Positions 2,984 to 10,396 of a stretch of DNA of 64,000 nucleotides are shown piece by piece (position 1 is the stretch's first letter; every line of letters begins with the position of its first letter). The notes under the pieces were generated by a model. That model was not told the origin of the DNA and did not search any database. It saw nothing but the letters and a program-made list of their open reading frames with translations. The position numbers and the translations under genes are program-made. The stretch is taken from NCBI RefSeq assembly GCF_036322705.1, contig NZ_AP027270.1, forward strand, positions 2,667,501 through 2,731,500, written 5' to 3'. This stretch comes from Maricaulis maris. GTDB lineage: Bacteria > Pseudomonadota > Alphaproteobacteria > Caulobacterales > Maricaulaceae.

Positions 2984-3931
2984 ATGAGCACAAAAGCCGC
3001 AACCTCCCCCCGCCCGCCTGCGCCGCTTGTCGCCTTCAACGGAAGCCGTCCGCCTGCACCGGACTGGTTTGCCAAGGCGCTGGCCGTCCCGACCGACGCC
3101 GGCGATGTCGTGGTGGACGGAGCCAGGGTCTGCTGGAAGGCTTGGGGTCAGCGCGGCGCGCCGGGCCTGATCCTTGTCCATGGCGGGGTCGCCCACAAGG
3201 ATTGGTGGGACAGTATCGCGCCCTTCCTCGCCGATACGCGCCGCGTGGTGGCGCTTGATCTCTCGGGCATGGGCGACAGCGATCATCGCGACCGCTACCG
3301 GATGGAGACCTATGCGCTGGAGGTTCTCGCCGCCGGCCAGGCAGGCGGTGCCTTCGAGGCCGGCAAGCCGTTCCTGGTCGGTCACTCGTTTGGCGGTTTT
3401 GTCTCCCTCGCGACCGCGATGGAGCATGGCGAGCAACTCAACGGCATCGCCGTGCTGGACAGCCCGATCCGCCCCAGTGACGAGCAGCGCCGGTCGTCAC
3501 CGCCCTCGCGCGGCGGCACGGTTTACAACAGTTTCGATGCCGCCCTGATGCGGTTCCGCCTTCTGCCCGAACAGGATTGCGACAATGCCTTCCTGCTCGA
3601 TCACATCGCCCGCCAATCTCTCAAAGAGGTCGAGCGCCCGGATGGCTCTGCCGGATGGACGTGGAAATTTGATCCCAAGCTCTGGGCCAAGCTCGACTAT
3701 GACCGACCGCCACCGGCCGACATTGTCGGCGCGCTGAAGACCCGGATCGCCCTGTTCCGGGGCGCCGAGTCGCGACTGGTGACTGACGAGGTCTGGGACT
3801 TCATGCGCGAAACCTTCGGACCGGACACGACCATGGTCTCGATTCCGCAGGCCGAACACCATCTGATCCTCGATCAACCGATCGCGGTTGCGGCTGCGCT
3901 GGAAGTCCTGACAGGTCCGGGCTGGGGCTAG
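2984..3931 (+). CDS. Alpha/beta hydrolase
   Basis: A 315-residue alpha/beta hydrolase-fold enzyme. Visible features are the oxyanion-hole strand ILVHGGVAHKDWW, the nucleophile elbow GHSFGG and a C-terminal catalytic His in AEHHLILDQP. A cap region rich in charged residues lies between the elbow and the last strands. There is no signal peptide, so it is likely cytoplasmic. It probably forms a transcript with the CPBP protease gene upstream. Substrate class (esterase, haloalkane- or epoxide-hydrolase-like) is not resolved. Confidence 0.85.
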   Translation: MSTKAATSPRPPAPLVAFNGSRPPAPDWFAKALAVPTDAGDVVVDGARVCWKAWGQRGAPGLILVHGGVAHKDWWDSIAPFLADTRRVVALDLSGMGDSDHRDRYRMETYALEVLAAGQAGGAFEAGKPFLVGHSFGGFVSLATAMEHGEQLNGIAVLDSPIRPSDEQRRSSPPSRGGTVYNSFDAALMRFRLLPEQDCDNAFLLDHIARQSLKEVERPDGSAGWTWKFDPKLWAKLDYDRPPPADIVGALKTRIALFRGAESRLVTDEVWDFMRETFGPDTTMVSIPQAEHHLILDQPIAVAAALEVLTGPGWG

Positions 3932-3961
3932 CCGCAGCTCCGGGCCGGAAGCCTCGGCGCG

Positions 3962-4219
3962 CTAGTGTTCCGGGTGCCGACGGATTTCCTGTTCCACATC
4001 CTCGGGCAGGGCTTCAGGGCGCGAGGTCGCGGCCTTGCGGATACCGGAAATGATGGCCATCACGACCACCAGGGCGAGCCAGACGCCAGCGATTTTCAGC
4101 CCGATCGGCCAGAGATAGCCAAACTCGATGGCACCGAAATTCAGATATTCCCGTCCCGCCACGACCGCGAAAGCCAACAGGGCAAGAAGGCCCGACCAAA
4201 GGGCGAAGGGAAGACGCAT
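3962..4219 (-). CDS. Small two-helix membrane protein
   Basis: An 85-residue protein starting with MRLPFALWSG. Two transmembrane segments are clear (about residues 5-21 and 38-58), followed by a basic and then acidic cytoplasmic tail. I chose the ATG at 4219 because the upstream extension of the frame has no membrane-protein character and runs into the next gene. It lies just downstream of the response regulator gene on the same strand, so it may be co-transcribed with the two-component system. No family recognised. Confidence 0.65.
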   Translation of the reverse strand: MRLPFALWSGLLALLAFAVVAGREYLNFGAIEFGYLWPIGLKIAGVWLALVVVMAIISGIRKAATSRPEALPEDVEQEIRRHPEH

Positions 4220-4268
4220 GCGAGGCTCCGAAGTTCTGCAGCACAGCCAGTTTAGGGCAGCGGTTTGC

Positions 4269-4871
4269 CTACAACCACCCCTTTTGTCGGGCCAGCCTTG
4301 CAGCCTCGATCCGGTTGGTGGTGCCCAGCTTGCCAATGGCACTGTGCAGATAATTGCGCACCGTTCCGCGGGCCAGCCCCGAGGCCTCTGCGATGGCATG
4401 ACTGTCCAGTCCGGCCTCGGCGAGGCGTAGCAGGCGGCGTTCGGCATCGCTCAACGGATCCGCTTCATCCCAGGCCCGGGCAGCCAGTTCAGGGGCCACA
4501 ACACGCTCCCCGGCCGCTACCCGGCGGATCGCACCGGCAAGGTCTGCAGACGGACCATCCTTCAGGATAAAGCCCGAGACACCCGCCTCCATGGCCCGGC
4601 GCAGATAGCCGGGACGGTCGAATGTGGTCACGATCAGGATGCGGGGCCGCACCGTCTCGCGCTGGAGAAGATCAGCCAGCTCAAGCCCGGTCATGTCCGG
4701 CATCTCGATATCGGTGAGCAGGACGTCGGGCTGATGCCGGCGGACCAGCGTATGGGCCTCCCGGCCATTGGCCGCCATGCCAACGATCTCGATATCGGTC
4801 TCCAGACCCAGCAAGGTCGCCAAGGCATCCCGCAGCAGCGTCTGGTCCTCGGCAATCACGACCTTGAGCAT
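4269..4871 (-). CDS. NarL/DesR-type response regulator
   Basis: A 200-residue regulator with a receiver domain (acidic pair in IAEDQ, phospho-acceptor Asp54 in LLTDIEMP, switch Thr in IVTTF, Lys in ILKDG) and a LuxR-type helix-turn-helix (GLARGTVRNYLHSAIGKLGT). The gene overlaps the 3' end of its histidine kinase by 16 bases, so the pair is translationally coupled. The layout matches DesKR/LiaSR-type systems that sense membrane state, but the stimulus here is unknown. Confidence 0.92.
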   Translation of the reverse strand: MLKVVIAEDQTLLRDALATLLGLETDIEIVGMAANGREAHTLVRRHQPDVLLTDIEMPDMTGLELADLLQRETVRPRILIVTTFDRPGYLRRAMEAGVSGFILKDGPSADLAGAIRRVAAGERVVAPELAARAWDEADPLSDAERRLLRLAEAGLDSHAIAEASGLARGTVRNYLHSAIGKLGTTNRIEAARLARQKGWL

Positions 4872-8641: not shown

Positions 8642-10045
<1,404 letters not shown>

Positions 10046-10057
10046 GACCTGTCAGCT

Positions 10058-10090
10058 GCGGTTCAGCTTTGCTCCGGCAGGCTGAACCGC
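10058..10090 (+). promoter_or_regulatory. Perfect inverted repeat abutting a start codon
   Basis: GCGGTTCAGC (10058-10067) and GCTGAACCGC (10081-10090) form a 10-bp stem with a 13-nt loop. The second arm touches the ATG at 10091. There is no T run, so it is not a standard terminator. It may separate pntB from the next gene, or hide that gene's ribosome entry site. No clear Shine-Dalgarno sequence lies outside the hairpin. Confidence 0.55.
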
Positions 10091-10396
10091 ATGCTCGCAG
10101 AACTCGCTCTCGCCCTCGCTCTTGCACACGCCGCCAGCGACGCGGTGGCCGAGGACTGCACGTGGAACGGCATCGCGCTCTACGGTGATGTCGAGGTGGT
10201 CGAGAGCTTTCCCGATATCCGGGTCCAGGTCGTGACCAGCTTCCCCGACCTCAAGGTAAAAACCGTCACCTCCTTCCCCGACCGCTGCGGGGAATGGAAG
10301 TTCGTGACCAGCTTTCCCGATTTCACGATCCAGTTCGTGACCAGCTTTCCCGACATCAAGATCGAGTATGTGACCAGCTTTCCCGGACGTCCCTGA
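10091..10396 (+). CDS. Small secreted SFPD-repeat protein, probable 7(1) septoil knot domain
   Basis: A 101-residue protein with a short hydrophobic N-terminus (a probable signal peptide, though without the usual basic residues). Six copies of a [VT]xSFP motif follow, with the serines at residues 39, 50, 61, 74, 85 and 96: a spacing of 11, 11, 13, 11 and 11. Each copy is flanked by alternating hydrophobic strands such as IRVQVV and LKVKTV. Cys23 and Cys66 could form a disulfide. The pattern CTWNGIALYG plus SFPD repeats agrees with what I remember of the Septknot (7(1) septoil knot) family, whose knotted fold came from structure prediction. Its biological role is unknown. It follows pntB on the same strand. 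Confidence 0.75.
   Translation: MLAELALALALAHAASDAVAEDCTWNGIALYGDVEVVESFPDIRVQVVTSFPDLKVKTVTSFPDRCGEWKFVTSFPDFTIQFVTSFPDIKIEYVTSFPGRP

Follow-up and report, generated by a model that had tools for sequence, protein, structure and literature searches.

What does the small gene that follows pntB in Maricaulis maris encode, and could its product belong to the family with the most complex knots known in proteins? In the window (the whole stretch of DNA that we analyzed, 64,000 nucleotides), this gene lies on the + strand at 10091..10396, begins with ATG, and encodes 101 amino acids. The earlier note had described six SFP motifs at a spacing of 11 residues, with one interval of 13, and this is what the sequence contains: SFP begins at residues 39, 50, and 61 (repeats 1-3, 10205..10279, + strand) and again at residues 74, 85, and 96 (repeats 4-6, 10310..10384, + strand), for spacings of 11, 11, 13, 11, and 11. 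When we shuffled the protein 200,000 times, no shuffle had more than two SFP, as compared to six in the real protein. The gene is the only match to the protein within its own genome. Relative to seven homologs from the same genus, the mature domain has dN/dS of 0.07-0.13, with dS of 0.9-2.0, which is near saturation; this argues that the protein is under purifying selection and that the gene is real. The core, from G32 to F97, is 66 residues long in 84 of 87 aligned rows.

We compared the protein to all PDB sequences with phmmer. Up to E = 1, a single protein matched, Q9PR55 (UU089.1), which aligned significantly to residues 35-88 (E = 5.6e-12) and which is named as a 7_1 knotted protein in one PDB title. 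According to two reports, the knot in Q9PR55 was predicted by AlphaFold and then confirmed by X-ray crystallography (PMC13352647, PMC11223836). Structure prediction points to the same family. With an alignment of 40 homologs (A1) and the full protein, including its signal segment, AlphaFold2 gave a poor model (pLDDT 55.3) that had a TM score of just 0.27 to 8iwa. With a more diverse alignment of 87 rows (A2) and the mature domain only (residues 21-101, 10151..10393, + strand), the model had six strands, a pLDDT of 95.4, and a pTM of 0.82; the five models from this alignment ranged from 90.1 to 95.5 in pLDDT. Foldseek found four significant matches to the confident model (8iwa_A, 8iwa_D, 8iwb_F, and 8jrm), all of which are Q9PR55, and the next match had E = 2.4. 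The match to 8iwa_A covered 68 columns at 48% identity (TM 0.61/0.63, rmsd 3.3, E = 1.9e-6), and the two proteins share the repeated SFPD turns. A search for viral structural relatives of the model returned none with E < 0.001. The structure prediction that the earlier note had proposed as a check gave a confident model whose significant matches are to Q9PR55 chains only. Computation established homology, strand layout, purifying selection, and a fold model that is of high confidence and akin to 8iwa. We are nearly certain that the Maricaulis protein has the fold of the Q9PR55 (torus-knot) family, whose knots are the most complex known in proteins, and it is a genuine member of that family.

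Which knot the Maricaulis protein forms is less clear. For a pair with 48% identity, TM 0.61 and an rmsd of 3.3 are modest, and 8jrm, which is the NMR entry for Q9PR55, matched with TM of only 0.33, so the topology is tentative. The main rival for the topology is that the protein has the same fold but is wound once less, as a 5_1 knot instead of a 7_1 knot. Brems et al. 2022 (PMC9278004) describe P73136, a homolog of Q9PR55 with 112 residues and 48% identity, as having a predicted 5_1 knot, one winding apart from the 7_1 knot of Q9PR55. The modest match to the 7_1 crystal structure would also fit a 5_1 knot. However, residues 28-83 of Q9PR55, which are nearly the whole of its knot core (reported as residues 27-83; PMC9278004), align to residues 35-88 of the Maricaulis protein with a single gap of two residues. 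We consider the 5_1 form to be a serious possibility, with a somewhat less than even chance of being correct.

We also considered whether the knot might be an artifact of prediction, in which case the protein would have a standard fold such as a beta-solenoid or a beta-prism. As noted in PMC10672856, chains in AlphaFold models can cross through one another, but the same text lists knots of this type as possibly real, and a homolog with 48% identity across 68 columns has been solved as a 7_1 knot (PMC13352647, PMC11223836). An artifact therefore seems very unlikely, and the Maricaulis protein is very probably knotted in one form or the other.

The earlier note had tentatively placed the protein in the 7(1) septoil-knot family and had proposed a search against PF19647, which it named Septknot; the Pfam name in our analysis is DUF6150. 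Kinship with the 7_1-knotted Q9PR55 is supported by both sequence and predicted fold, and membership in PF19647 is not supported. We required more than 27 bits with the Pfam model for membership. PF19647 did not match the Maricaulis protein or any A1 row (40 rows, the window's own included) at E = 1, it did not match anything in the Maricaulis genome at E = 10, and it did not match the 56-residue segment of Q9PR55. It did match L106 and L107, which belong to PF19647 and served as positive controls. Membership in PF19647 was therefore rejected. Across 12 other genomes (10 with a knot-family locus, plus G525 and G540, which matched A1), there was no match at E = 0.001, and the controls were silent as well; in the phylum of L046 (Cyclobacteriaceae), PF19647 matched 5 of 148 genomes.

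DUF6150 does resemble the knot family in its layout: in L106 and L107, a central GxW corner divides six repeats into two sets of three. Unlike in the Maricaulis protein, the repeats of both have a Y-x-x-Q-A-D motif, and those of L106 have spacings of 13, 13, 16, 13, and 13. Profile-profile comparison with hhalign placed 57 columns of the two families in register, which was below significance (P = 0.028, probability 1.8%, with only three DUF6150 rows, one of them partial). One knot-family locus (L104, 1498-1749) has a single YASQAD turn, of the DUF6150 type, among its SFPD turns, and might be a link between the two families. Another locus (L109, 985-1701) encodes a longer protein that opens with a DUF6150-like stretch and also has a low-complexity linker; this stretch has five turns, most of which read YAYEAD, so the number of repeats may vary in DUF6150. 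We did not find any Pfam model for the knot family: weak matches to the A1 rows were scattered over 15 Pfam families, the best being DUF6893 (12 of 40 rows). A family name from NCBIfam was also rejected, as there was no consistent match.

Is the protein exported? The earlier note had called it secreted, and a hydrophobic segment at its N terminus (residues 1-20, 10091..10150, + strand) does make a signal peptide probable. Across the family, 102 of 112 members pass a crude hydrophobicity rule for such a segment, 8 fail, and 2 are cut off by the ends of contigs. The case in Maricaulis is weaker than the earlier note implied. The segment is atypical for a signal peptide because it lacks both lysine and arginine, and three relatives from the same genus (L002, L007, and L009) fail the rule; given both points, export in Maricaulis is probable but not proven. 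We think it likely that the protein is exported in M. maris. Two members from spirochaetes, L036 and L039, have a cysteine that we take to be lipobox-like.

If the protein is exported, then its two cysteines could form a disulfide. Cys23 (10157..10159, + strand) lies near the start of the mature domain, and Cys66 (10286..10288, + strand) lies in CGEW, a conserved corner of the family that is outside the repeats and that gives rise to the 13-residue spacing. The two cysteines tend to be kept or lost together. By a strict test of alignment columns, both are present in 71 of the 87 A2 rows, both are absent from 13, and 3 are discordant; two of the discordant rows have a misplaced N-side cysteine and none at position 66, while L152 has only the second cysteine in its column. 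By a looser rule, of 112 members including the window's copy, 92 have both, 16 have neither, and 4 have just one, so that 108 are concordant. Members without the pair occur in several lineages, including L051 (Dialister), L082, L083, L100, L101, L103, and L138, and prophage loci are among them. On a weak tree (4 of 84 inner branches were starred), the two cysteines changed 12 and 11 times. Just three independent pairs of cysteine changes fell on starred branches; they agreed in almost all of 200 draws, and with three pairs a sign test cannot reach 0.05. Because the cysteines are kept or lost together, we infer that, once the protein is exported, its fold is probably held in place by a disulfide, and from this covariation we consider a Cys23-Cys66 bond in the Maricaulis protein to be quite probable. 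By analogy, the disulfide would clamp the knot, provided that the knot core matches that of Q9PR55. Within the aligned stretch, and unlike the Maricaulis protein, Q9PR55 lacks a cysteine at the position of Cys66 but has one three columns earlier; it also has six residues after the aligned stretch, as opposed to thirteen in Maricaulis. Taking fold, export, and disulfide together, and leaving the exact role aside, we view the combination as evenly balanced between right and wrong.

The location of the gene might seem to hint at its function. The earlier note had placed it after the pnt operon and had read this as a clue. The placement is correct: protein profiles identify pntA and pntB upstream, with pntB at 8642..10045 on the + strand (PF02233; NF006974 also matched, below its cut-off), and just 45 nt separate the pntB stop codon from the ATG of the knot-family gene. 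As the earlier note had proposed, we also checked for conservation of this arrangement. In 14 of the 15 Maricaulis loci, the gene is preceded by pntB on the same strand, and at the remaining one (L018), the gene is at the very start of its contig, so the arrangement is present in all 14 loci where it could be seen. It is also kept in three genomes of the genus coded g14 and in L027. However, pntB was not found at the other loci from the same order that we examined, within about 1.5 kb (for most loci) or 5 kb on each side. Among the relatives that do have pntB, the gap from the aligned part of pntB to the matched domain varies from 58 to 2,482 nt, and at L010, the stretch between the two genes contains a strong hairpin with five U after it. 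In other lineages the neighbors differ: a peptide deformylase gene adjoins L033, genes that look like peptide deformylase (by appearance only) are beside L036, L039, and L041, and dnaJ and greA are near L040. Across the loci examined, we did not see a partner gene that was common to different lineages. If the protein were a partner of the pnt transhydrogenase, encoded in the same operon, then the short gap in the window and the shared strand in Maricaulis would be expected, but the variable gap, the lack of pntB within the distances covered at the other same-order loci, the location of relatives next to genes for peptide deformylase, dnaJ-greA, or prophages, and the T-tailed hairpin at L010 all argue against it. 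We rejected a functional tie to pnt, which seems highly implausible. Given the variable gap, the limited spread, and the hairpin, the pnt context reflects local synteny and is not evidence of function.

A hairpin is also predicted in the window itself, from a perfect inverted repeat of 10 bp (10058-10067 and 10081-10090, + strand) that spans 10058..10090 and ends at the start codon (fold z = -3.2). Similar hairpins are predicted at L003, L004, and L008, but not at L021 or L013. This hairpin may serve as a control element, or it may mark where the pnt transcript ends. Scans for promoters and terminators around the gene did not find any.

The spread of the knot family is patchy. We found the gene in 16 of the 19 Maricaulis genomes. 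Counting matches at E = 0.001, and including the window's own genome, it was present in 69 of 299 genomes from the order of Maricaulis and in 3 of 299 from its phylum. We ran four more surveys, each at the level of phylum and each centered on a genome that was chosen because it carries the gene and that was included in the counts. In the phylum of L041 (Spirochaetaceae), 25 of 198 genomes matched. The survey around L043 (Spirulina) gave 13 of 194, with one of the 13 being weak (E = 3.2e-4), the one around L046 (Cyclobacteriaceae) gave 9 of 247, two of which have a match that is interrupted by a stop codon, and the one around L051 (Dialister) gave 4 of 299. Three plasmid records also matched, two from Leptospira weilii and one from Burkholderia stagnalis. 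In the phylum of the Dialister record, Omp85 was found in 3 of 4 carriers versus 6 of 26 non-carriers, although not in the Dialister record itself. A link between the gene and a diderm envelope within this phylum is suggestive only.

The family is also known from viral sequences. phrog_6462 from PHROGs, whose function is unknown, matched the window's protein (E = 2.9e-30) and all 87 rows of A2. Unlike the members of phrog_6462, the window's copy is chromosomal; the flanking genes that we scanned are pntB and a methyltransferase. In IMG/VR, 16 distinct contigs have a knot-family gene. We scanned the neighbors in all of these contigs except five (L143, L145, L150, L153, and L156). Nine have genes for phage structure, packaging, or lysis nearby (L147, L148, L149, L151, L152, L154, L158, L161, and L170, the last by a weak match with E = 9.9e-9). 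For L144 and L146, where one protein was scanned in each contig, there was no match to such genes. In L148, L149, and L152, the knot-family gene is flanked by two baseplate-hub genes (phrog_4930 and phrog_5233) and is encoded on the opposite strand, and that of L170 is on the same strand as its neighbors. Outside of IMG/VR, a genomic member, L083, is near an AlpA-type prophage regulator.

At one site, prophages with and without the gene can be compared. Searching with the minor tail protein of L158 returned 37 related contigs, including L158's own. Of the 36 contigs that have sequence upstream of this tail gene, 3 have a knot-family gene in that slot (L187, L188, and L190) and 33 do not. L189, whose tail protein is 95% identical and which shares an IMG record number with L187 and L188, has a GhoS-like gene (PF11080) in the same slot and orientation. 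The corresponding search with the baseplate-hub protein of L148 found its own contig only. Phage cargo genes, or morons, stand singly in variable slots among the late genes and are often on the opposite strand. In some prophages, the knot-family gene behaves as a cargo gene of this kind. The window's copy does not show this arrangement and lies outside any prophage, so the argument for cargo rests on its relatives. Among 50,697 records of isolated phages, three queries gave no match. An anti-phage defense family was rejected as an explanation: across the 87 rows of A2, PADLOC reported just two families, with one weak match each. A search of open-licence papers returned none that links knotted proteins with prophages.

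The patchy spread, the lack of a fixed neighbor, and the single-gene cargo in prophages suggest that the protein acts alone and provides an advantage at the level of the envelope. As we envision it, the chain would cross the inner membrane unfolded and, once in the periplasm, would wind up as a beta domain with either a 5_1 or a 7_1 knot. Oxidation would then join Cys23 to Cys66 and so fasten the N-terminal end at the corner that separates repeats 3 and 4, which would keep the knot from slipping. This would yield an envelope protein that is small, rigid, resistant to proteases, and very stable, and its host might gain an advantage in the envelope; for instance, a target at the surface or in the periplasm might be shielded from other phages or from hydrolases. 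For the Maricaulis protein, a rigid, degradation-resistant, and protective envelope protein that stands alone is the likeliest role, if a doubtful one. For the family as a whole, a bolder reading is that bacteria and prophages share a mobile family of exported, disulfide-locked, torus-knotted envelope shields, with the knot having been selected for resistance to unfolding and to proteases; we would give this a probability of roughly one in three.

The main rival for the role is inhibition of envelope enzymes: the protein might be a periplasmic inhibitor of lysozyme or of a protease, with one corner of the rigid domain blocking the active site. The protein is small and has a stand-alone gene, most members look exported and have paired cysteines, and CGEW is conserved despite being outside the repeats. 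Inhibitors with such a build (small, exported, and cysteine paired) are known. On the other hand, no Pfam or NCBIfam family is convincingly similar to the protein and there is no enzyme partner nearby in the window, and we consider an inhibitor to be rather unlikely.

If the protein is instead a shield, then its knot would have a selected function, namely, resistance to unfolding and to proteases outside of the cytoplasm. Why proteins knot is an open question; in the accessible part of PMC9278004, the 7_1/5_1 family has no stated function, and both Q9PR55 and P73136 are called uncharacterized. The Maricaulis protein itself adds one member to this known family. What is new is the wider pattern of proteins that look exported, that have paired cysteines, and that are sometimes carried by prophages. 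The existence of an exported-looking class with the cysteine pair, a class without the pair, and prophages with or without the gene at a single site means that the knot, the disulfide, and the phenotype could be separated experimentally.

Two other loci have unusual arrangements of the domain. L045 has two knot-family genes in tandem (3841-4547), the first of which is strongly diverged, with a long branch of 1.76. At L129 (1210-1758), which was found by the search centered on Spirochaetaceae, the knot-family domain follows a Tudor-like domain (PF21743, E = 0.0017, below the cut-off).
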